Shown here piece after piece: positions 53,250-64,000 of a DNA stretch of 64,000 bases. A model generated the notes under the pieces. The model was not told the origin of the DNA, searched no databases, and saw nothing but the letters and a program-made list of their open reading frames with translations. How positions within the stretch are numbered: the stretch's first letter is position 1; each line of letters starts with the position of its first letter. This stretch comes from Solimonas flava DSM 18980 (GTDB taxonomy: Bacteria; Pseudomonadota; Gammaproteobacteria; Nevskiales; Nevskiaceae), in assembly GCF_000426685.1 (NCBI RefSeq), contig NZ_AUFV01000001.1, positions 62,001 through 126,000 on the forward strand, in the 5' to 3' direction. Made by a program: the position numbers and the translations under genes.

Positions 53250-53858
53250 CTAGCGGGCCACCGGCATGCGGCCGGTGCAGCGGATCACGCGCGCCGCGCC
53301 GTGGTGGAACGGCCCTTCGTCGAGCACCGTCTCGACCGGTTCGATGCGCAGGTCCTCGAGACCGCCGAAGTCGCGACGCAGGTCCTCGGTGGTGAACAGC
53401 CAGTCGATGTCGCGCGGGCCGCCGCCCGGCAGTCCGAAGTGGCCGCGCTCGAAGCCTTCGAGGATCAGGCGGCCGCCCGGGCGCAGCGCGCCGAGCAGCC
53501 GGCGGTGGATGTCGTGGCGCTGTGCCGGCGGCAGATGCAGGAAGATCAGCACCAGCGCGTCGAACGCGGCCGGCGGCGGCTGCCAGCTGGCGAGGTCCGC
53601 GCACAGCGTGTCGATCGTCACGCCCTGTTGCTCGGCGAGGTGTCGCGCCTTGTCGAGGCCGGTCTGCGACTGGTCGACCGACAGCACGCGATGGCCCTGC
53701 TGCGTCAGCCACACGCCGTTGCGGCCTTCGCCGTCGCCGGGCAGCAGCACGTCGGCATGCGCCGGCAGCACCGCCGCGGCGGTGGTGAGGAAACGGTTCG
53801 GCGTGGTGCCGTAGGCGTATTCCGGCGCCGCGTAACGCTGATCCCAGAACTCACGCAT
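53250..53858 (-). CDS. Class I SAM-dependent methyltransferase (TehB-like)
   Basis: 202 residues: MREFWDQRYAAPEYAYGTTPN start, SAM motif LLPGDGEGRNGVWL, acidic motif SVDQSQTGLDKA and LEGFERGHFG. This small family is often annotated as tellurite-resistance or thiol methyltransferase; the substrate is unknown. It ends the leftward metal gene run and overlaps the HMA gene by 8 nt. Confidence 0.82.
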   Translation of the reverse strand: MREFWDQRYAAPEYAYGTTPNRFLTTAAAVLPAHADVLLPGDGEGRNGVWLTQQGHRVLSVDQSQTGLDKARHLAEQQGVTIDTLCADLASWQPPPAAFDALVLIFLHLPPAQRHDIHRRLLGALRPGGRLILEGFERGHFGLPGGGPRDIDWLFTTEDLRRDFGGLEDLRIEPVETVLDEGPFHHGAARVIRCTGRMPVAR

Positions 53859-54081
53859 CGCCCGGCGCTCCCGGCTGCGGCTGGAAGCCGGCCGACTGCA
53901 GCGCCGCGCGCAGTTCGGCGTCGAGACCCGGGGCGCGGCCGTGGACGACGATCTGCCGGCCGGCCAGATCGACGTCGACGCTTTCGACCTGCGGCTCGCG
54001 CGCCAGACGCCGGCGCACGGCGCGCTCGCAGGATTCGCAATGCAGGTCGGGCAGGTGATAGCGGTAATCGGTGGCGCTCAT
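53851..54081 (-). CDS. Heavy-metal-associated (HMA) domain protein
   Basis: 76 residues. Metal-binding CESC (Cys15/Cys18) in the HMA context LPDLHCESCERAV, then ESVDVDLAGRQIVVHG, the ferredoxin-like fold of CopZ/Atx1 copper chaperones. Its presence below a copper receptor supports copper handling. ATGA overlap with DUF2798. Confidence 0.85.
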   Translation of the reverse strand: MSATDYRYHLPDLHCESCERAVRRRLAREPQVESVDVDLAGRQIVVHGRAPGLDAELRAALQSAGFQPQPGAPGDA

Positions 54082-54320
54082 CGGGGACCTCCGGACGTCG
54101 GCGGCAGGACGATACGGGCGGCGAGGCGCTGCGCCCGCGGTGCGAGCCAGACGATGATCGGCACCGCCAGACTCCAGGCCAGCAGCCAGTTGAGCAGCCA
54201 GTGGCGCAGGTTTCCGCCGTTGACGGCGTTGAGCACGCCGCTGATGACGGCGGTCATGCCGGCCCCCATGATCAGCGCGAACACCCAGGGCAGGGCGGCG
54301 CGACGCCGTTCCTGGCTCAT
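54078..54320 (-). CDS. DUF2798 small membrane protein
   Basis: 80 residues with two membrane helices ([22 protein letters not shown] and [19 protein letters not shown]), the DUF2798 pattern. Function unknown; often found near metal and heme genes. ATGA overlaps with the DUF3365 and HMA genes show one operon. Confidence 0.75.
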
Positions 54321-54895
54321 GGTGCGCGTCGCTTCAGCGAGAAGGCGCCGCGCAGTTCGCCGAGCCGGTAGCCGACGGCGGCATCGTACGGATAGTCCGC
54401 CTGCAGCGCGGCGCGCAGCGCCGGCGACTGCGCGTCGGGCTGGCCGTGGCAGGCCAGGCACAGTGGCGCGACGACGATCGCCTTCATGTAGCGCTGGTAG
54501 CGGCCGGCCGGTTCGTCGAGCTCGGCGTAGGTCGCCAGCGCGTCCGGCGCGGCGTGGGCGGCGAGCCGGCGGTCGAAGTCGGCGAGCTGGGTCTGCTCCC
54601 AGGCATCGGCGACGCCGGTCAGCGGGTTGCGCACGCGGGTGCCGATGCGACGCACCTGCCAGCCGCTTTCGCGCGACAGGCGGGCGGCGATCGCCGGCGC
54701 CTCGTCGCGGCAGACGTGCACGGCGTTGACCGGCCCGCCGTCCGCCATCGCCGCCTGCAGGCGGGCGCCGAGCGTTTGCTGGAAACGCGTGGCGATGGCC
54801 TGCGCTTCGGCCGCCGGCGTTTTGGTGGTGTCGGCGCCGGCGCCGAGCGGCGTCAGCGCGAGGGTTGCGGCAACCACGATAGAAGATAGGCGCAT
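54317..54895 (-). CDS. DUF3365 periplasmic c-type heme protein
   Basis: 192 residues. Signal peptide to about residue 21, a Tll0287/DUF3365-like sensor fold, and a heme-binding CLACH (Cys146, Cys149, His150). [12 protein letters not shown] adds a further Cys at 62. Could be a redox or ligand sensor, or an electron carrier, next to metal uptake genes. ATG 54895 chosen to give a proper signal peptide. Confidence 0.8.
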
Positions 54896-54959
54896 GGCGA
54901 GCGGCAGCGTCGAGCCCGGCATCGCAGCAACAAAAAACGGGCCAGCCGACGGTAATCCG

Positions 54960-54971
54960 GAAAGCGCTTTC
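54960..54971. promoter_or_regulatory. Palindrome between tonB and the DUF3365 gene
   Basis: GAAAGCGCTTTC, a perfect 12-bp palindrome in the 183-bp gap 54896-55078. It may be an operator for the DUF3365-DUF2798-HMA-methyltransferase genes. Nothing else is recognised in the gap; no clear Fur box. Confidence 0.35.
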
Positions 54972-55078
54972 GAATCAGCTTGTTGAACTTCGACGCAGAG
55001 GGTGCCGGGCGTGCTGACTGCCAGTCCGTTGCTGACATTGGCAGTGCGCTGGCGCCGCTCTGGCAGTACGGGACGTTC

Positions 55079-55780
55079 TCAGCCGAAGTGAAAGGCGATG
55101 CGGAACTCGCGGCCGGCGGCGGCCGGCGGCGGCGGGAACGGCGCGGCGCGGCGCACCGTGCGCAACGCCAGACGGTCGAGCAGGCCGTTGCCGCTCGACT
55201 GCAGCAGTTCGAGCGCGACGAGCCGGCCGTCGGCATCGAGCGTGAAGCCGACCAGGGCTTCGCCCTGCAGGGCCGTGCCGGTCGGCCGGGCCGCGGCGAT
55301 CTGCGTCCACAGGGCCTGCACGTAAGCCGCGGCGACGCGGGCATCGTCGACCGCTGCCACGGCCTGCGTATCGGCTGCAGTCGCTGCTTCCGCTGCTGCC
55401 GGCGCGCGCAGTGATGGCGAACGCGTGAGGTCCGGCGTGGCGGCGGTCGACGCCGCTGCGGAAGGCGCGGGCTCCGGATGCGCAGGGGAAGCGGCGGGTT
55501 TCACGGCCGACGCGCGCGGCGCCGCGCGGGGCACCGGGGCCGCGGGTCGGGGTTCGGGACGAGCCGTCGGCGGCGGTGCGGCGACCGCCGGCAGCAGGCG
55601 CACGCTGACCGCGCCGGGCGCCGCCGCCGGCGGCGGCGACGGTCCGGCGTGCAGCAAGGCGGCGATCACCACGAGGTGCAGCAGCGCGGTGAGGCCGGCG
55701 CCGGCGAGCCGGCGCGCGCGCCGCGGATCGCGGGGCACGCCGGCCTCGCGATCGTCCGCGGCGCGCGGCGCGGCCTGCAT
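55079..55780 (-). CDS. tonB: TonB energy-transducing protein
   Basis: 233 residues: an N-terminal helix (AGLTALLHLVVIAALLHA), a long Pro/Ala-rich periplasmic spacer (about 50-130) and a C-terminal TonB domain (YVQALWTQIAAARP, ALVGFTLDADGRLVALELLQSSGNGLLD). Passes proton-motive energy from ExbBD (not in window) to receptors. Coupled to the copper receptor by a TGATG overlap, so probably dedicated to it. Confidence 0.9.
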   Translation of the reverse strand: MQAAPRAADDREAGVPRDPRRARRLAGAGLTALLHLVVIAALLHAGPSPPPAAAPGAVSVRLLPAVAAPPPTARPEPRPAAPVPRAAPRASAVKPAASPAHPEPAPSAAASTAATPDLTRSPSLRAPAAAEAATAADTQAVAAVDDARVAAAYVQALWTQIAAARPTGTALQGEALVGFTLDADGRLVALELLQSSGNGLLDRLALRTVRRAAPFPPPPAAAGREFRIAFHFG

Positions 55781-57951
55781 CAGAAGCTCAGCCCCAGGCC
55801 GAGATTCAGCGAGCGGCCGCGGCCCGGCACCGGGCGCAGCTCGCCGGTCGCCTTGTAGTCGCCGATCGACTGGCCGCCGAGCGGCGCGGCGTAGGCGCGG
55901 TCGAGGACGTTGTCGACGCCGAAGTCGACGTGGTAGCGCTGCCAGCGATAGCGCGTGCCGAGGTTGAGCAGCGCGTAGCCGCCGGTCTGCGGTTCCTGGC
56001 GCGTCGCATCGACGCGCGTCTTGGCGTCGACCAGCACCAGCTCGACCTGGCTGTCCCAGCTGCCGAGCGCGTGCAGCAGCGCGAGCCGACCGTTGAGCGG
56101 CATCTGGTGGTAGAGCGAACCGCCGTCATCCTTGTTGCGGCCGCGGCCCCAGGATGCGGTGGCCTTGAGCTGGGTGCGGCCGGCGGCCGGCGTGTCCCAG
56201 AGCTGCAGCGCGCCGGCGAGATCGAGCCCGTACAGCTCGGCGTCGTGGTTGGCGAACTGCAGCTGCACGAAGCCGTTCGACAGATCGGCGAGCTTGTCGG
56301 CGTCGATGTAGTCGTGCACGAGGCTGTAGTACGGCGTGACGCTGACGGTCCACGGCTGCGCGAGGCCGCCGCTGTGGCGCAGCGTCGCGCTGACGGTGTC
56401 GGCGGCTTCCGGATCGAGATCGAGATTGCCGACGTAGCCGTTGCCGTCGCCGTACCAGCCGATCATGCGGCTCGACATCGAGCCGCGGCCCCAGGCGTAG
56501 CGCTCGTAGAGGTTCGGCGAGCGCGTCTTGTGCGCGTAGCCGAACTCGATCGCGGTCGCCGCCGAGGCCTGGTAGCGGGCCAGCAGGGTCGCGTCGAAGT
56601 GGGTGTCGGTCTTCTTGTGATCGGCGGCGTTGAACGCAGCGGCCGCGGCGATGTCGGCGGCGCTCATCATGCCGGTCGTCGCGTACGGCTGCACGTCGCC
56701 GGTATTCATCCAGACCATGTCGTTACGGACGCCGGCGAGCGTCGACCAGCGCTCGTTCCAGCGTGCCTCCCACTCGACGAAGGTGCCGAGCCGGGTGCGG
56801 TGTCCGCCGTTGACGTTGATGTAGGTGTCCGGGCCCATCATCATGCTGCCGGCGACCGGCGGCCAGTAGTCGTTGAGGCTCTGGCGCTGCAGTTCGTTGC
56901 CGATGCGCAGCGTGTCGCCGCCGTCGAGCAGCACATCGGCCTTGACGAGGTAGCCGGCGCCGCGCACGCGGGTGTCCATCGGCATGCCGCCGCTGGCGGT
57001 GCCGCCCTTGTCGTCGAGGAAGTTCATCTTGTGCTCGGTGTCGCGGTAGTAGCCGCGCGCCTCGACATCGCCCCAGTCGAACACGCCGCGGTAGCGCGCG
57101 CTGCCCTGCGCCGAGCGGTTGAAAGTCATGTCCATGTACTGGTTCGGAAAGCCCTCGTACGGCGAGTGCTGCAGATTGCCGGCCAGCTCGAACAGACCCA
57201 GATCGTTCTGCGTCGCCAGCTTCAGCGTCTGATCGTATTTCTCGTATTCGGTCGAGCGCACCAGCCCGTCGTCGCCGCCGCCGTCGTAATGGCGCGAGCG
57301 CGTGCCCGAGCCGCTGTAGCCGAGGTGGTAGCGCTCGCTGGCCAGCGTCGCGGCGAGCGCGCCGCCGAAGGCGTCGCCGTTGCTGCGGTAGAAGCTGTTC
57401 AGCGAGCCGTCGAACAGCGTCGCGCCGGCGGCGGCGAAGCGCGGTGCGGCGCTGTCGACGACGATCGTGCCGCCGAGGCTGTCGCCGCCGAGGCTGACCG
57501 GCGTGATGCCGGCGATGACCTGCACGCGGCTCAGCGTCTGCGGATCGCTGTACGACAGCGGCGGGTTCATGTGATTGGGACAGGCGTTGTCGATCGGCAG
57601 GCCGTCGACGACGACCTTCACGCGGTCGTCGGCGAGGCCGTGCAGCGCCGGCAGGCTGGCCACGCCGCCGCCGCCGTAGGCGCTGACGCCGGGCAGGCCC
57701 TGCAGCAGTTCGGCGACGTCGCTGCTGCGCGAGCGCTGGCGTTCGAGCTCGGCCGTCGTCAGCGTGGCGCTCGCCAGCGGTGCGTCGCGCAGCGCCCGGG
57801 CGGCGGATTCGACGGCGACGGCCGGCAGTTCGGTCGCGGTGGCCGCCGGCGCTGCGGCGGTCTGGGCGAACGCCGGCGCGGCGAACAGCGAGGCGGCGAG
57901 GGCGATCAGGTGGCGGCGCGGGGTCGCCGGTTCGGAATGATGCAGTGACAT
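55780..57951 (-). CDS. oprC: TonB-dependent copper receptor (OprC-like)
   Basis: A 723-residue outer-membrane transporter. Signal peptide to about residue 29, plug domain (DVAELLQGLPGVSAYGGGG), 22-strand barrel ending in LGLSF. The segment DNACPNHMNPPLSY holds Cys124 and Met128, the CxxxM copper-binding motif known from P. aeruginosa OprC. ATG 57951 is preceded by GAGAG. A DUF2946 reading frame lies 89 nt upstream and tonB follows directly. Confidence 0.92.
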   Translation of the reverse strand: MSLHHSEPATPRRHLIALAASLFAAPAFAQTAAAPAATATELPAVAVESAARALRDAPLASATLTTAELERQRSRSSDVAELLQGLPGVSAYGGGGVASLPALHGLADDRVKVVVDGLPIDNACPNHMNPPLSYSDPQTLSRVQVIAGITPVSLGGDSLGGTIVVDSAAPRFAAAGATLFDGSLNSFYRSNGDAFGGALAATLASERYHLGYSGSGTRSRHYDGGGDDGLVRSTEYEKYDQTLKLATQNDLGLFELAGNLQHSPYEGFPNQYMDMTFNRSAQGSARYRGVFDWGDVEARGYYRDTEHKMNFLDDKGGTASGGMPMDTRVRGAGYLVKADVLLDGGDTLRIGNELQRQSLNDYWPPVAGSMMMGPDTYINVNGGHRTRLGTFVEWEARWNERWSTLAGVRNDMVWMNTGDVQPYATTGMMSAADIAAAAAFNAADHKKTDTHFDATLLARYQASAATAIEFGYAHKTRSPNLYERYAWGRGSMSSRMIGWYGDGNGYVGNLDLDPEAADTVSATLRHSGGLAQPWTVSVTPYYSLVHDYIDADKLADLSNGFVQLQFANHDAELYGLDLAGALQLWDTPAAGRTQLKATASWGRGRNKDDGGSLYHQMPLNGRLALLHALGSWDSQVELVLVDAKTRVDATRQEPQTGGYALLNLGTRYRWQRYHVDFGVDNVLDRAYAAPLGGQSIGDYKATGELRPVPGRGRSLNLGLGLSF

Positions 57952-58040
57952 GTTTCGTTCTCTCGATGCAGCGTGGCGTCGGGTGGACGCGAGGCGCGGC
58001 GCAGGATGCGATGCGCGGGTGTCGCTCGGTGACGGCGGGT

Positions 58041-58430
58041 TCAGAACGAAAACGGGGGGCCGCGCAGCTGCGGCAGATGTACGAGCCGGACCGCCGGCGC
58101 GCGCGCGAGCGGCGCGACCTCGGGGACCGGATGACGCTGCGACGGCAGATGGAAGGCCGGGACCGTCGGCGTGGCGTGGTGGACGGCATGCAGGACGCCG
58201 CACCAGGCGCAGTCGCCGCCGTCATGCGCCGGGGCCCGCGCGGCGCCGCGCGTCGCGCTCGCCCGAGCGTCCGGCGTGGCCCGATCCACGCCGCAGAACG
58301 CGTAGAGACGCGGATCGGCGAGCCGCTCGGCGCGCAGTCCGCTGTAGAGCTGCGGCAGCAGCAGCTGGCCGAGCAGCGCCGTCAGCGCAAGCAGCAGCGC
58401 CAGCGGACGATGGCGGCGGATCGCGCTCAT
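58041..58430 (-). CDS. DUF2946 small protein upstream of the copper receptor
   Basis: 129 residues: one N-terminal hydrophobic helix, Cys46 (YAFCG) and the CxxC pair Cys74/Cys77 (DCAWCG), followed by a His-rich HAVHH and a poorly ordered tail. DUF2946 proteins are tied to copper; I recall one, CruR of Bordetella, described as a copper-responsive upstream reading frame controlling a TonB-dependent transporter operon. Position here fits that role. Overlaps the PepSY gene by ATGA. Confidence 0.8.
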   Translation of the reverse strand: MSAIRRHRPLALLLALTALLGQLLLPQLYSGLRAERLADPRLYAFCGVDRATPDARASATRGAARAPAHDGGDCAWCGVLHAVHHATPTVPAFHLPSQRHPVPEVAPLARAPAVRLVHLPQLRGPPFSF

Positions 58431-59827
58431 CGGGCGTCGGCGAGACCGAGGAAGCGTCGCGTCGCGCCGAGCCGTCGCAGCAGCAGCGCTTCGAGCAGCC
58501 GGACGGCGAGCATCGAGGCGCCGAGCAGCGGGAACAGCAGCGCGAATATCAGCGCCAGCGCGATCAGGCCCGGCGCGACGCGCGTGCCGGATGGCGGCGG
58601 CGCGCCGAGCACGCCGGCCGGCCGGCGCTGCCACCACAGGGTTGCGGCGCTGACGCTCAGCATCGCGAGGCCGAGCGCGGTGAGCAGGCCGAGCAGCTGG
58701 TTCGGCCAGCCGAACAGCTGGCCCTCGTGCGCGGCGACGCCGGTGCCGACGATGCGGTCGAGCAGCGGCCGCTCGTGAAAGTCGACGCGCCGCACGATCG
58801 TGCCGCGCTCGCCGTCGAGCGTCAGATTGACGCGCTGCGGACGGTTCGCCGCGTCCGAGCGCGCCGTCCACGACGCCGCGGCCCGCGACGGCGGCGCGAT
58901 CAGTACCGGCGGCGCGAGCCGCAGCGATGCGACCGGCGCGACCAGGCGATCGAGTTCGGCGTAGGCCGCCCCCGCCGTGCCCTGCAGCGCCTGCGGGCCG
59001 GACGCCGCCATCGCGTGGCCTTCATGGCCGGCCGGCGGGGTATTGGCGGCGAGGTTGCGCGCGCGCTCTTCGGCACGGCTCGTGGTCCAGTCCTGCTCGA
59101 CCACGGCGCCGTCGCCGAGCGCGCGCAGCGCCTTGAGGTAGCCGCCCCAGAAGTTCGCCCACGGCAGGCCGCTGAGCAGCAGGAACAGCGCGAAGGCCGA
59201 GACCCACAGGCCGGTGACGGCATGCAGGTCGCGCCAGAACGTGCGGCCGCCGGCGCCGAGCCGCGGATAGACGATGCCGGCGAGTCCGCGCGCTGCGCGC
59301 GGCCACCACAGGTACAGGCCGGTCGCGAGCATGACGATCGCCCAGCACGCCGCCAGCTCGACGAGCCACGAACCGCGCGGCCCGAGCATCAGCTCGCCGT
59401 GCAGACGGAAGACCTGGCGCATGAAACGGTCCTCCTCGCGAATCGCGCCGAGCACCTGCGCGGTCTGCGGATGCACGTAGACGCGCGTCAGCTCGCTGCC
59501 GCGGCCGACCAGCACGCGCACCGCGGATTGCGGCGTGCGCGGCAGTTCGTAGGCGTTCAGCGTCGCGTCCGGCACCGCGGCCAGCGCCGCGGCGACCTGT
59601 TCGCGCGGCGCAGCCGGCGCGCCGTCGACCGCGAGGTTCTCGTAGCCGCGTTCGAGACGGGCCTCGATCTGCGGCTTGAACAGGTAGATCGCACCGGTCG
59701 CGGCCAGCCACAGCACGAACGGCAGGCAGAACAGCCCGGCATAGAAGTGCCAGCGCCAGATCGTGCGGTGCGCGGCGGCGCGGCGCGGCGTCGCGGATGC
59801 CCGGGATTCCATTGCCGAGGTCTCCAT
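58427..59827 (-). CDS. PepSY-associated membrane protein (PiuB-like)
   Basis: 466 residues with four to five helices. First helix WHFYAGLFCLPFVLWLAATGAIYLFK; FRLHGELMLG and DLHAVTGLWVSAFALFLLLSGLPW are PepSY_TM hallmarks, with several His residues in the helices. Such proteins accompany TonB-dependent receptors and may reduce or pass the metal across the inner membrane. The start overlaps the receptor stop (TGATG); ATG 59812, with GGAG nearby, is an alternative. Confidence 0.88.
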   Translation of the reverse strand: METSAMESRASATPRRAAAHRTIWRWHFYAGLFCLPFVLWLAATGAIYLFKPQIEARLERGYENLAVDGAPAAPREQVAAALAAVPDATLNAYELPRTPQSAVRVLVGRGSELTRVYVHPQTAQVLGAIREEDRFMRQVFRLHGELMLGPRGSWLVELAACWAIVMLATGLYLWWPRAARGLAGIVYPRLGAGGRTFWRDLHAVTGLWVSAFALFLLLSGLPWANFWGGYLKALRALGDGAVVEQDWTTSRAEERARNLAANTPPAGHEGHAMAASGPQALQGTAGAAYAELDRLVAPVASLRLAPPVLIAPPSRAAASWTARSDAANRPQRVNLTLDGERGTIVRRVDFHERPLLDRIVGTGVAAHEGQLFGWPNQLLGLLTALGLAMLSVSAATLWWQRRPAGVLGAPPPSGTRVAPGLIALALIFALLFPLLGASMLAVRLLEALLLRRLGATRRFLGLADAR

Positions 59828-62229
59828 CAGAAGCGCACGCGAATGCCGCCGTAGTAGGTGCGCGGCGTGCCGGCGTAGATCGAGCCGCCGGCCAGCGACA
59901 GCAGGTCGGCGCCGTTCTGTTCGCCGGTCGCCGCATCGAGACTGTTCGACAGATTGCCGGCCGAGCCGATGTAGGTCTTGTCGAACAGGTTCTGCACGGC
60001 GAGGTACAGGCCGAAGCGCGAGGCCCCGCCGCCGGTGCCCGGCCGGTCGTAGTGCAGGTTCAGGTTCATCAGCTCGTAGTCCGGGGCCTTCAGCAGGTTG
60101 GCGTTGTCGAGGTAGAAGTCATCGCGCCAGTGGTATTCCAGATACGCGCCGAGGCCCTGCAGCGCGCCGCGCTGCTGTTCGTAACCGAGCCGCGCACTGA
60201 GCACCTGCGGCTGGATGCCGGGGATCTTGTTGCCGTCGCGCTTGAACACCTTGCTGTAGCTGCCGGCGCTGAGCCGCTCGTCGTAGTCGCGGTAGATCTG
60301 GTCGTCGTAGGTGTAGGCGGCGCTCAGGTACAGGCCCGGCAACGCCCGCGGCAGCGGCTGCGCGTGCAGGCCCAGCTCGACGCCGCGGTGCTCGGAGCGC
60401 GGCGCGTTGAAGGTATAGCTCTGCAGGCTGACGCCGGCCGACTGCGAGACCAGCTCGTCGCGGAACAATTCGTAGAAGCCGGACAGGCTGATGCGCAGGA
60501 TTTCGCCGAGCCGCCATTCGGCGCCGAGATCGAGGCCGTAGTTGCGCTGCGAATCGAGCTTCGTGTTGTTGCCGGCGACGCCGGCCGGCGTCACGAACAG
60601 ATTGCCGAGCTGCGGCGTGCCGTAGCCGGCGGCGAGGCGCGCGTGCAGCGTCCACGCCTCGTCCGGCGCGTACTGCAGCGCCAGTTCCGGCGCGAGGTTG
60701 TGGAACTCGCGCCGCGCGTCGATGCGCTGCAGCGTCGGCGTGGCGTCGGCGGTGTAGCGGTAGCTGGTGCTGAGCCCTTCGATCTGCGTGTACTCGCCGC
60801 CGAGCCCGAGCACGGCGCTCCAGCGCGCAGCGAAGCGGATCTGCTCGCGCAGGCGCAGGCCGGCGTTGAGATGATGGCCGTTGACCGACTGCGTCAGGCC
60901 GCCGCGCGTGGCGTGGCCGTCCGGCATCACGTTGTAGACGGAGGAGTTGAGTTCCTCGTAGTTGTAGAACAGGCCGCCGGCCGTCTCGGCGTCGGCGCCG
61001 AACAGCGTGTGGCGGCGCGTCAGATCGCTGCGCAGATTGAACGACGGATAGGTGCCGTCGTACGACTGCGCGCTGGTCGGCTGCTTGATGTCGCGGTTGT
61101 CGAAGACCAGCTGGGTCCGCCACGCGGTACGCGCGTCGACGGCGTGCTCCCAGCGCGCGCCGGCGATCGTGCGGCGGTCGTGACGGCCGAGGCCGGCGGC
61201 GGCCGCGCTCGTCGCCTGGCGCGCGCCGGTGTAGCCGTTGACGAGCAGGTTCACCGAGGCGCAGCCGTCCGCCGCGAGCTCGCCGCAGCCGCGCTGGTAC
61301 GGATTGAGCCGGTACTGGTTCAGCGACAGGCGCAGCGAGAGGTCGGCGTCGAGTTCGTTGTCGATGAACTTGAAGACCAGCCGGTCGCGGGCGGTCGCCT
61401 GCCAGACGGCGGAGAGGTTCGCCGTCGTCGTCAGATAGTCGGTGTGCGCAGTCGCCGAGCGGCCGCGGACGTTGCTGACGAAGGCCGCGTAGTCGAGCGC
61501 GTCGAGCCGGTCGCCGGCCAGCGCGTAGACGTTGAGCGTGCCGTAGCTGCCGGCGTCGAGGCCGGCTTCGACGCCGCCGATCTCGCTGCCGCGGCGGCTG
61601 TGGAAGTCGATCGCGCCGCCGGTCGCGTAATTGCCGAACCAGGCCGACGAGGGGCCGCGCACCACGTCGATCGCGCCGTAGGCATGCGGATCGCTGAGGT
61701 CGGTGCGCGCCAGGCCGTCCGGCTGGGTGACGTCGAAGCCGTCCTCGAAGACCTTGATGTTGCGTACGCCATAGGTCTGGCGGTTGTTCGAACCGCGCAC
61801 CGAGATCGACACGTCGCGCGGGCCGTTGCCGGGCTGGAAGCTGACGCCCGGGCTCATCGCCAGCACTTCGGCGATGTTCAGCGCCGGCACGTGCGCGAAG
61901 TCCTCGCGCGTCAGTGTCGTCGCGCTCTGCGCCGGCGCGGGATCGCTGCTGCGGCCGGTGACGACGACGGTTTCGATGCCGTCGCCGCGCGCCGGCGCAT
62001 CGGCCGTCGCGGCGCGATCGCCGTCGGCGCCGGTCGGGGCCTGCAGCGCGCGCAGTTCGCGCTCGATGGCATCGCGCTGGCGCAGCAGTTCGGCGCGGCG
62101 CGCCTCGGCGGCGGCAGCGCCGGAGGCGGCGTCGGACGTGGAGACGGCGGCGTTTTGCGCCAGTGCGGCCGCCGGCAGCGCGGCCATGGTGAAACCGAAC
62201 GCGGCCAGCGCCGCGCGTGCGTACGACAT
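59827..62229 (-). CDS. TonB-dependent receptor, ligand unknown
   Basis: 800 residues. Signal peptide to about residue 25 (AALAQ), an extra N-terminal stretch with a short coiled coil (EARRAELLRQRDAIERELRAL), TonB box region (ETVVVTG), plug (VSFQPGNGPRDVSISVRGSNNRQ) and a barrel ending in GGIRVRF. Resembles siderophore-type receptors. No CxxxM copper motif seen in the plug. Its DUF2946 leader gene and PepSY partner suggest copper or an iron/copper chelate, but the ligand cannot be read from the sequence. Confidence 0.88.
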   Translation of the reverse strand: MSYARAALAAFGFTMAALPAAALAQNAAVSTSDAASGAAAAEARRAELLRQRDAIERELRALQAPTGADGDRAATADAPARGDGIETVVVTGRSSDPAPAQSATTLTREDFAHVPALNIAEVLAMSPGVSFQPGNGPRDVSISVRGSNNRQTYGVRNIKVFEDGFDVTQPDGLARTDLSDPHAYGAIDVVRGPSSAWFGNYATGGAIDFHSRRGSEIGGVEAGLDAGSYGTLNVYALAGDRLDALDYAAFVSNVRGRSATAHTDYLTTTANLSAVWQATARDRLVFKFIDNELDADLSLRLSLNQYRLNPYQRGCGELAADGCASVNLLVNGYTGARQATSAAAAGLGRHDRRTIAGARWEHAVDARTAWRTQLVFDNRDIKQPTSAQSYDGTYPSFNLRSDLTRRHTLFGADAETAGGLFYNYEELNSSVYNVMPDGHATRGGLTQSVNGHHLNAGLRLREQIRFAARWSAVLGLGGEYTQIEGLSTSYRYTADATPTLQRIDARREFHNLAPELALQYAPDEAWTLHARLAAGYGTPQLGNLFVTPAGVAGNNTKLDSQRNYGLDLGAEWRLGEILRISLSGFYELFRDELVSQSAGVSLQSYTFNAPRSEHRGVELGLHAQPLPRALPGLYLSAAYTYDDQIYRDYDERLSAGSYSKVFKRDGNKIPGIQPQVLSARLGYEQQRGALQGLGAYLEYHWRDDFYLDNANLLKAPDYELMNLNLHYDRPGTGGGASRFGLYLAVQNLFDKTYIGSAGNLSNSLDAATGEQNGADLLSLAGGSIYAGTPRTYYGGIRVRF

Positions 62230-62293
62230 GAAGACTCTCCCTGGGAAGCGGACAAGACGCGCCGCCCGGCAATGCCGGTGGCGGAGGCGGGCT

Positions 62294-62674
62294 TCAGGCG
62301 AGAGCGGGAGGACCGGTGGCGTGCGGCTGCGGGCAGGGTGTCGCCGGCCGATCGCAGGACGTCCGCGCCGGCGGCGACGGCGTGCGGGTCGGCACGTCGA
62401 GGGCGATGGCGGGTGGCGGCGGCAGCGCCGCCATCGCCGCCATCGCGAACGCGCAGGACTTGCCGGGTTCGATCGTCGCGCCGCCGTCGGGCAGGGCGTG
62501 GTCGCCGCCGCGCACGGCCTGCGCTGCGCCGCCGCTGCAGAAGATCAGGCCGTAGCGGTCGGGTGCGGCGGCGTCGCGGCCGAGCATGAAGCCCTGCGGC
62601 AACAGGCCGTGGCCCAGCATCGCGGCGAGCGCGAGCCAGAGCATCAGGCAGTTGCGGCGGAGACGGGCGATCAA
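62294..62674 (-). CDS. DUF2946-like small protein upstream of the TonB-dependent receptor
   Basis: 126 residues: hydrophobic N-terminal helix (LMLWLALAAMLGHGLLPQGFML), Cys46 in YGLIFCSGG and Cys74 in GKSCAFA, then a Pro-rich tail with Cys107 and Cys114. Cys46 and Cys74 fall at the same residue numbers as in the paralogue at 58041-58430, though the second CxxC Cys is absent. Ends 64 nt before the receptor; the gap holds a CCGGC-ATT-GCCGG hairpin and a GGGAGAG ribosome site. Possible copper-sensing leader frame. Confidence 0.72.
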   Translation of the reverse strand: MIARLRRNCLMLWLALAAMLGHGLLPQGFMLGRDAAAPDRYGLIFCSGGAAQAVRGGDHALPDGGATIEPGKSCAFAMAAMAALPPPPAIALDVPTRTPSPPARTSCDRPATPCPQPHATGPPALA

Positions 62675-62750
62675 GGCGACGGCGATCGAATGGCGGACTG
62701 GGGCGCGATGCTATCAACTCCGGCCGCCGGCATCACGCGGCGGCGCGCGC

Positions 62751-63617
62751 TCAGGCCGCGGCCAGCTCGCGCAGCAGCGCCTGGGCGGCGCCGGAGACGG
62801 TGCGCCGCTCGTGCCAGACGACGCCGAGCTCGCGGTGCATCTTCAGCTCCGGAATCGGCAGCGGCCGGATCGTGTCGTCGATCATCGATTCCGGCAGCAC
62901 GCTCCAGCCGAGGCCGATGCCGACCAGCATCTTCAGCGTCTCCAGATAATTGGTCGACAGGCGGATGCGCGGCTTCAGGCCGTGGCGCTCCAACTCGCGG
63001 GTGGCGATGCGCCGCGTGTAAGTCTGTTCGTCCGGGAACACCGCCGGCAGCGCCGCGAGCTCGGCGAGCGGTACGCGGCGGCGGCCGAGCAGCGGGTGGC
63101 CGGCGGCGATGACGACGACCAGCGGGTCCGGCCAGACGACGCGCTGTTCGAGCTGCGGCAGCGGCACGGTCGGCAAGGTGACGATGCCGAGTTCCAGCTT
63201 GCCGGCCAGCACCGCCTCGCAGGCGACTTCCGAATCCATGAAGTGAATGTCGAGGTCGACGTTCGGATACTGCTGCGTGTAGGCGCGCAGCACCGGCGGC
63301 AGGCGATGCAGGCCGATGTGATGGCTGGTGCCGATCGACAGGCGGCCGCCGACTTCCTCGTGCAGTTTCGACAGCGCGCGCTTGCCGTCCTCGATGTCCT
63401 GCAGGGTCTTCTTCGCATACGGCAGCAGCGTGCGGCCGGCGTCGGTCAGGGTGACGCGGCGGCCGACGCGGTCGAACAGGGCATGGCCGATCTGCGCTTC
63501 GAGCGCGGTGATGCGCTTGCTGATCGCCGGCTGCGACAGATGCAGGGTTTCGGCGGCCTGGGTGAACGAGCCGCCGTCGGCGACTTCGACGAAGGCGGCG
63601 AGGAACTGGGTTTCCAT
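62751..63617 (-). CDS. LysR family transcriptional regulator
   Basis: 288 residues. N-terminal winged helix (residues 1-60: FVEVADGGSFTQAAETLHLSQPAISKRI), a linker helix, and a periplasmic-binding-protein-like effector domain (GRLSIGTSHHIGLHRLPPVL). Divergent from leuC, the same arrangement seen in Pseudomonas. It may regulate leuCDB, but the effector is unknown. Confidence 0.9.
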   Translation of the reverse strand: METQFLAAFVEVADGGSFTQAAETLHLSQPAISKRITALEAQIGHALFDRVGRRVTLTDAGRTLLPYAKKTLQDIEDGKRALSKLHEEVGGRLSIGTSHHIGLHRLPPVLRAYTQQYPNVDLDIHFMDSEVACEAVLAGKLELGIVTLPTVPLPQLEQRVVWPDPLVVVIAAGHPLLGRRRVPLAELAALPAVFPDEQTYTRRIATRELERHGLKPRIRLSTNYLETLKMLVGIGLGWSVLPESMIDDTIRPLPIPELKMHRELGVVWHERRTVSGAAQALLRELAAA

Positions 63618-63644
63618 CGGGGCTCCGGGCGGCGGGACCTTCGT

Positions 63645-63659
63645 ATTCTATTGTGGAAT
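63645..63659. promoter_or_regulatory. Possible LysR-type binding site
   Basis: ATTC-N7-GAAT, a symmetrical T-N11-A site, 28 bp from the LysR start in the 159-bp divergent region before leuC. The rest of 63618-63776 is A+T-richer in places but gives no clear hexamer pair. Confidence 0.45.
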
Positions 63660-63776
63660 GGACTGCATAAAAACGATTCATTGGAGTTATCGAAGCGGCG
63701 GACCTAGAATCGCCGCCGCCTGATGAGGGCTGCGTCCGCCGCGACGCCGCCCGACACGACTTACCGGAGAGCCACG

Positions 63777-64000
63777 ATGACCGCAGCCAGCCCCCGCACC
63801 CTGTACGACAAGATCTGGGACGCCCACGTCGTCAAGGACCTCGGCGGCGGCTCGGCGCTGATCTACATCGACCGCCATCTGGTGCACGAAGTGACCAGCC
63901 CGCAAGCCTTCGACGGCCTGCGCCTGAACCATCGCCAGCCCTGGCGCCTGGGCGCCAACCTGGCGGTCGCCGACCACAACGTGCCGACCACGCCGGACCG
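63777..64000 (+). CDS. leuC: 3-isopropylmalate dehydratase large subunit (cut by window end)
   Basis: The first 74 codons are visible from ATG 63777, with CGGAGA 8-13 nt upstream. [40 protein letters not shown] and [11 protein letters not shown] are the standard LeuC N-terminus; the aconitase-fold enzyme isomerises 2- to 3-isopropylmalate in leucine synthesis. The iron-sulfur cysteines lie beyond the window. Confidence 0.95.

Follow-up and report, generated by a model that had tools for sequence, protein, structure and literature searches.

What can it mean that a single operon carries two small leader genes, each directly before a gene for a TonB-dependent receptor? Such an operon lies on the reverse strand of the window considered here, a 64,000-nucleotide (nt) stretch of Solimonas flava DSM 18980 (NCBI RefSeq assembly GCF_000426685.1, contig NZ_AUFV01000001.1, positions 62,001 to 126,000). 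An earlier note on this DNA had proposed that the two small genes, called leader A and leader B below, belong to the DUF2946 family and form a tandem, possibly hierarchical copper-sensing system. We put at roughly 0.62 the probability of the following reading: the two are arrest leaders of the DUF2946 (CruR/CutF) type, set one after the other in a single copper-type uptake operon, and a ribosome stalled at the end of each leader would unmask the Shine-Dalgarno (SD) sequence of the receptor gene behind it. The observation that carries this reading is new here: across the family, the last codons and the stop codon of a leader are complementary to the SD region of the next gene. The features of the operon, with positions in the window, are as follows.

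62294..62674 (-): leader A, 126 amino acids, with a TTG start, an N-terminal segment resembling an export signal, C46, CAFA at 74-77 and TGPP at 120-123, then three residues and the stop; DUF2946 score 16.5 bits (below the cut-off of 23.7), and an orthologue 83% identical in the corresponding position of a second genome of the genus (G046)

62291..62305 (-): predicted 5' arm of hairpin A, the last codons and stop of leader A; its duplex with the receptor A SD region has -19.0 kcal/mol

62234..62249 (-): predicted 3' arm of hairpin A, the receptor A SD region GGGAGAG (anti-SD duplex -8.2)

59827..62229 (-): receptor A, a PqqU/YncD-like TonB-dependent receptor of 800 amino acids

58427..59827 (-): PepSY_TM protein, 466 amino acids; its start overlaps the receptor A stop (TGATG)

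58041..58430 (-): leader B, 129 amino acids, with CAWC at 74-77 and RGPP at 123-126, then three residues and the stop; its ATG overlaps the PepSY stop (ATGA); DUF2946 score 33.3 bits

58043..58053 (-): predicted 5' arm of hairpin B (weaker and context-dependent), the last codons and stop of leader B

57949..57962 (-): predicted 3' arm of hairpin B (weaker and context-dependent), the stretch directly upstream of the receptor B start codon together with that codon

55780..57951 (-): receptor B, an OprC-like TonB-dependent receptor of 723 amino acids with CPNHM (CxxxM)

55079..55780 (-): TonB-family protein (tonB), 233 amino acids; its start overlaps the receptor B stop (TGATG)

When the two leader-receptor gaps are folded, the last codons of the leader pair with the region before the receptor start in both cases. 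For the family, the leader end (the last 18 nt plus 6) was scored against the next SD region in 83 of 86 leader-receptor pairs, three being dropped because no start was found. The cognate pairs reach -13.78 kcal/mol against -10.85 (standard deviation 0.29) after re-pairing, and none of 5000 re-pairings is as low. The criteria for picking receptor starts were the strength of the SD sequence and the presence of a hydrophobic stretch, with leader pairing playing no part, and six loci that repeat family genomes were excluded here as well as from the control, motif, junction and accessibility analyses. Within every one of five groups the cognate pairs are again lower than chance (re-pairings as low in 0, 0, 80, 2 and 8 of 5000); these groups were drawn up by hand on the basis of record titles, with perhaps a few loci misplaced. 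In a non-redundant set of 37 leaders, no two of which are more than 50% identical, the values are -14.30 and -11.03 (standard deviation 0.45; 0 of 20,000), and in 37 further leaders that precede other genes they are -14.66 and -10.64 (0 of 20,000). This further set consists of leader B of the window and 36 new leaders; near-copies were kept, and 20 of 57 candidates were dropped because no start was found. By contrast, 308 ordinary neighbouring gene pairs from the same loci, chosen by a codon-position G+C rule rather than by annotation, show no cognate effect (-12.41 vs -12.64).

Only windows located at the end of the leader and over the SD region give the pairing signal. Typical pairs include the stop codon (UCCUGA with UCAGGA), extensions vary by locus on both sides, and the register shifts between loci, as in the Bradyrhizobium rows of the MAFFT alignments. 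Pairing below expectation is found for 27 of 36 leaders with CxxC, 32 of 37 with one Cys, 8 of 10 with no Cys and all five with TGPP. Locus-specific complementarity of the leader end, as expected of SD masking, is thus present at the family level and for leader A, whose hairpin is the stronger of the two in the window; for leader B the pairing residual is -3.0 and the effect depends on the folding context. The literature covered, mostly open-access and read as passages of text, contained no description of leader last codons pairing with the next SD across receptor leaders. Gap lengths have been examined for stem-loop control, with a stem-loop shown for cutO (PMC9973294), and widespread use of such control is anticipated in a review (PMC10502375).

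The pairing arm can be related to the site of ribosome arrest. When RAPP-type peptides stall the ribosome, the third residue of their motif occupies the P site (PMC10987492), and a stall at this residue has been shown in vitro for CruR (PMC12992588). In both leaders of the window the arrest-type C-terminal motif ends three residues before the stop, as it does in 109 of the 143 leader-like open reading frames (ORFs) that have a motif, and a ribosome stalled with three residues after the motif covers a median of 0.62 of the paired bases of the pairing arm. Masking this footprint raises the predicted SD accessibility from a median of 0.19 to 0.37 over 76 pairs, compared with 0.20 and 0.24 for masks placed elsewhere; the 76 are what is left of the 83 after dropping seven with a gap above 200 nt or no motif. 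For leader A the accessibility rises from 0.02 to 0.41, and in a wider stretch from 0.27 to 0.41-0.46. Together, the cognate pairing and this gain under the arrest footprint argue well for an unmasking mechanism in the family and in leader A, and weakly in leader B.

The layout of the operon is as the earlier note described it: the order, strand and coordinates of leader A, the first receptor, the PepSY gene, leader B, the OprC-like receptor and tonB are all confirmed, each small frame stands directly before a TonB-dependent receptor, and the gaps from leader stop to receptor ATG measure 64 nt (A) and 89 nt (B). All other junctions overlap, so these two gaps are the only untranslated stretches between leader A and tonB. 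The serial arrangement of two leaders is supported by these junctions and recurs in other genomes. In particular, the second genome of the genus has the identical gene order, with receptors 93% and 97%, leaders 83% and 89%, and the PepSY protein 94% identical. Unless it is on one transcript with the LysR gene 76 nt upstream, leader A is the first gene; leader B is internal to the operon, its start overlapping the PepSY stop codon, and so does not share the position of other DUF2946 genes, which according to Roy et al. (PMC9426467) are systematically first in operons. No sigma-70-like promoter or intrinsic terminator was found in scanning 54900-63700, and no known RNA family reached its gathering score in 54500-64000. 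The LysR gene itself (62751-63617) is unlikely to be a dedicated regulator, since it occurs in 49 of 58 family genomes, compared with 9 of 58 for strong receptor A orthologues (at least 936 bits). Downstream of tonB on the same strand, at 53851-54081 and 54317-54922 (-), lie genes for a small heavy-metal-associated (HMA) protein and a Tll0287-like protein with CLACH, which may form the tail of the same operon.

In the mechanism that we propose, a ribosome translating a leader would pause at its C-terminal xGPP motif and occupy the last codons, which would otherwise pair with the SD sequence of the following receptor; the receptor would then be translated. Once the nascent leader encounters its signal, which is most likely copper, the pause would end, the hairpin would close and the receptor would be switched off, and Rho-dependent termination may add to the shut-off. 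Leader A would gate all of the genes, and leader B would gate receptor B and tonB a second time. Leader B has a weak SD sequence (-2.4 kcal/mol), and its start overlaps the stop of PepSY, just as the PepSY start overlaps that of receptor A. With overlapping junctions and hardly any SD sequence of its own, leader B is probably translated mainly once leader A has opened the operon, and serial gating by the two leaders is likely. What the sequences show directly is the leaders with their motifs, the gene junctions, the recurrence in other genomes and the complementarity across the family; arrest at TGPP, copper as the signal, the direction of the switch and the serial gate we infer.

Several results weigh against this reading. 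Neither leader-receptor stretch folds better than its shuffles (z +1.05 and -0.95), the pairing being visible only against cognate and non-cognate controls and not in the stability of the whole stretch. For leader B, the mask does not free the core SD sequence (0.58 to 0.54), and an effect on the start codon that appears when 60 nt of the leader are folded (0.17 to 0.80) vanishes with 120 nt (0.54 to 0.55). Leader A remains under the gathering score of Pfam PF11162 with an E-value of 0.014, and its ratio of non-synonymous to synonymous substitution rates (dN/dS) between the window and G046 is 0.93 over 126 codons, compared with 0.44 for leader B and 0.23-0.31 for the receptors and PepSY. Its motif has Thr at a position where Arg is the only residue tolerated in ApcA, ApdA and ApdP (PMC12992588), so that its arrest could be weak or absent. 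Finally, both leader ends carry an excess of C over G of the type associated with Rho loading: the highest C-minus-G value in a 78-nt window is 29.5% for leader A and 28.2% for leader B, while none of five neighbouring genes exceeds 24.4%.

The C excess is what one would look for if the published CruR mechanism applied here, with each leader controlling Rho-dependent termination in the leader-receptor gap and the hairpins playing no role. Such Rho control is published for cruR-bfrG of Bordetella pertussis (PMC9426467), and over 125 leaders the mean C-minus-G peaks at about 16% near the stop, compared with 3% inside receptors. However, the excess comes in part from the motif's proline codons, the gaps of 64 and 89 nt compare with one of 162 nt in cruR-bfrG, and the Rho route does not predict a locus-specific complementarity between the leader end and the SD region. 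We consider this explanation unlikely, if still to be reckoned with. Under the unmasking reading, the likely read-out includes, beyond the published Rho route, a hairpin between the last codons of the leader and the receptor SD region.

Are both small genes in fact DUF2946 leaders, as the earlier note assumed? Cys46 and Cys74 are present in both, as it stated; the full sets are residues 9, 46, 74, 107 and 114 in leader A and 46, 74 and 77 in leader B. The profile search upheld the assignment for leader B, with 33.3 bits against the gathering score of 23.7, and by the Pfam rule did not uphold it for leader A, which is related to the family through homology only: its homologues include two S. 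aquatica leaders (E 6e-14 and 5e-13), both above the DUF2946 cut-off at 27.3 and 29 bits. That both frames are DUF2946-type leaders is thus supported, for B by Pfam and for A by homology. Leader B also has the CxxC and RxPP motifs about 45 residues apart (CAWC, 45 residues, RGPP, three residues, stop). Leader A has neither motif in this form (CAFA, 42 residues, TGPP, three residues, stop), and we treat it as a divergent DUF2946 relative that may work like CruR, without filing it as CruR.

The divergence of leader A would also fit a different explanation, in which only leader B works as a sensor and leader A is a relic that has lost the CxxC and the Arg and no longer regulates receptor A. CAFA and TGPP, the Pfam score below the cut-off, the dN/dS of 0.93 and the spacing of 42 instead of 45 residues between the motifs all point this way. 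The changes are not spread over the gene, however: residues 1-49 and 117-126 hold two synonymous and no non-synonymous nucleotide differences between the two genomes, and 22 of 23 non-synonymous differences fall in residues 50-72 and 87-116. Moreover, the hairpin of leader A is stronger than that of leader B, leaders with one Cys precede many receptors, and TGPP is common to 5 of 147 leader-like ORFs; it has been adopted as a search motif for sec leaders since it recurs (PMC10987492). As an account of the operon, loss of function in leader A seems to us improbable. Simple decay of the gene is likewise the less likely option, given that one-Cys leaders recur in 54 of 143 leader-like ORFs with a motif.

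From the presence of CxxC in only one of the two leaders, the earlier note had suggested that they may sense differently. As a statement about the two receptors this is not supported: leaders without the second Cys form a large class, and in different genomes either class precedes orthologues of both receptors. The one-Cys class has a spacing of 43-46 and stands before a variety of receptors, and the missing second Cys marks a recurrent class, probably not decay. Among nine receptor A orthologues, six follow a leader without the second Cys and three a CxxC leader; for four receptor B orthologues the division is two CxxC and two one-Cys leaders. In a tree of 49 leaders from family loci, 21 CxxC leaders fall, with leader B, on one supported side (100/99). 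Leader A lies elsewhere in the tree, where it forms a supported group of four (98/86) together with its G046 orthologue and two leaders that precede receptor B orthologues, and all four end in TGPP. The mixed classes before orthologues of receptor A and of receptor B indicate that leaders have been exchanged between receptors and that the class does not follow the receptor.

Two further loci touch on this exchange. The third DUF2946 leader of the S. flava genome (contig C9, L035 7688-8711) precedes a PCuAC copper chaperone and groups in the leader tree with the receptor A leaders of S. marina and S. terrae, which again points to exchange of leaders. In S. marina (L043 3853-8021), the LysR gene, a TGPP leader and a receptor B orthologue lie close together with no receptor A or PepSY between them, as if a block of receptor A, PepSY and leader B had been inserted in the lineage of the window.

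Mixed classes also bear on the nature of the signal. The leaders may sense another metal or a chelated one, with leader A differing from leader B. CutF-like clusters do differ in their metal-binding residues, nickel or cobalt being proposed for those with His only (PMC9973294), and receptor A is PqqU-like rather than OprC- or CrtA-like. On the other hand, the occurrence of both CxxC and one-Cys leaders before orthologous receptors is easiest to understand if the signal is the same, and we regard a different metal as rather unlikely. The copper-type setting assumed in the unmasking reading is supported by the OprC-like receptor with its CxxxM and by the third leader before PCuAC.

How widespread are such leaders, alone or in pairs? 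The genome scan of the receptor A family covered 80 loci, out of 137 relatives. In 76 of them the 700 nt upstream of the receptor contain the end of an ORF with a C-terminal [RTHQKS][AG]PP, and in two of the remaining four the contig end lies just upstream; a PepSY_TM relative follows the receptor in 47. A second leader on the same strand is present in at least 10 of the 80 loci and in at least 8 of the 58 family genomes, the window and G046 included. These counts refer to retrieved loci, S. aquatica contributes to both, and they are not a blind test in that the leader profile was trained on the leaders themselves. For example, S. aquatica has a leader, receptor A, PepSY, a leader, another receptor, MbnP and an MbnH-like gene; Hydrocarboniphaga has a leader, receptor, PepSY and a leader; and a Bradyrhizobium has a leader, PCuAC, an ORF, a leader that overlaps the preceding stop (ATGA), and then receptor A. 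In Edaphobacter (L077 8546-9480) and another Acidobacteria record (L116 2626-3930), a single gene of the receptor A type is preceded by two leaders in immediate succession. Two putative leaders per locus thus recur in other Solimonas, Hydrocarboniphaga, Bradyrhizobium and Acidobacteria. In a survey of 369 genomes of the class, 30 have a DUF2946 match at E ≤0.001 and three, including that of the window, have two matches, no such pair being close together; this survey undercounts, as it misses the pair of the window itself, leader A being below the cut-off. The literature covered held no description of two DUF2946 leaders in one operon.

Leaders of another kind were seen in Acetobacteraceae (Gluconacetobacter, Asaia and Acidomonas; L113, L117, L120, L129, L130, L133, L135, L137, L140, L142 and L143). 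They have no Cys motif at the usual place, contain loops with His, and carry two xGPP motifs, the last again near the end.

As for the receptors, the description of receptor B as OprC-like holds: its best match in the PDB is OprC of Pseudomonas aeruginosa, with CPNHM aligned to the CPNRM of OprC. The CxxxM pattern, which receptor B shares, we take to be the copper-binding motif of OprC. Receptor B differs in that its best NCBIfam model, TIGR01778 (TonB-dependent copper receptor), gives 139 bits against a cut-off of 472, which leaves it outside that equivalog. A profile of the nine receptor A orthologues scores 161 bits with PqqU/YncD, 23.5 with the CrtA structure entry 9rvq (named in PMC12914433) and 13.5 with OprC, and on these scores we rejected receptor A as a CrtA orthologue.

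Among known systems, the cruR-crtA-crpH operon of Bordetella pertussis, with CruR (bp2923), resembles this one in that genes for a TonB receptor and a PepSY_TM protein come after a leader, and leader B shares with CruR a CxxC, a spacing of 45 residues and a C-terminal RxPP with three residues behind it (PMC9426467). It differs in that the present operon has two leaders, the second inside the operon and overlapping the PepSY gene, that neither the second Cys nor the Arg is present in leader A, that receptor A is not CrtA-like, and that short gaps here go with pairing of leader end and SD region. CutF-CutO of Rhodobacter capsulatus also has an exported leader with a Cys motif, a proline-rich end and a stem-loop that shields the SD sequence of the next gene (PMC9973294). 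However, CutF has CxxxC and copper turns a copper oxidase on, whereas the genes here encode importers that would be expected to be off with copper; and the pairing arm found in this analysis is formed by the leader's own last codons, which co-vary across receptor leaders. SecM-secA and the RAPP-type sec arrest leaders share the C-terminal RxPP/RAGP arrest and the unmasking of the next SD sequence by a stalled ribosome (PMC10987492), but sec leaders monitor protein export, whereas DUF2946 leaders carry metal-binding motifs.

More generally, DUF2946 leaders may be metal-gated arrest leaders that unmask SD sequences, with their last codons and stop as the anti-SD arm, with CxxC, one-Cys and no-Cys forms swapped between receptors, and with some bacteria stringing two of them together as a two-step gate, in which translation of the second would depend on arrest of the first. 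We advance this tentatively, at odds somewhat short of even. If true, the role of the leader end as anti-SD arm would account for the frequent position of the arrest motif three residues ahead of the stop. Published mechanisms for the leader family disagree, with Rho termination for CruR and a stem-loop for CutF; pairing of the leader end with the SD region, seen in leaders that have CxxC and in leaders that lack it, and ahead of copper genes of several kinds, would be a simple common read-out. The serial operon would be a natural case in which to see how two arrest leaders combine, and the family of PqqU-like receptors, which in the 80 loci examined almost always follow a leader of this kind, would become a candidate for metal import.

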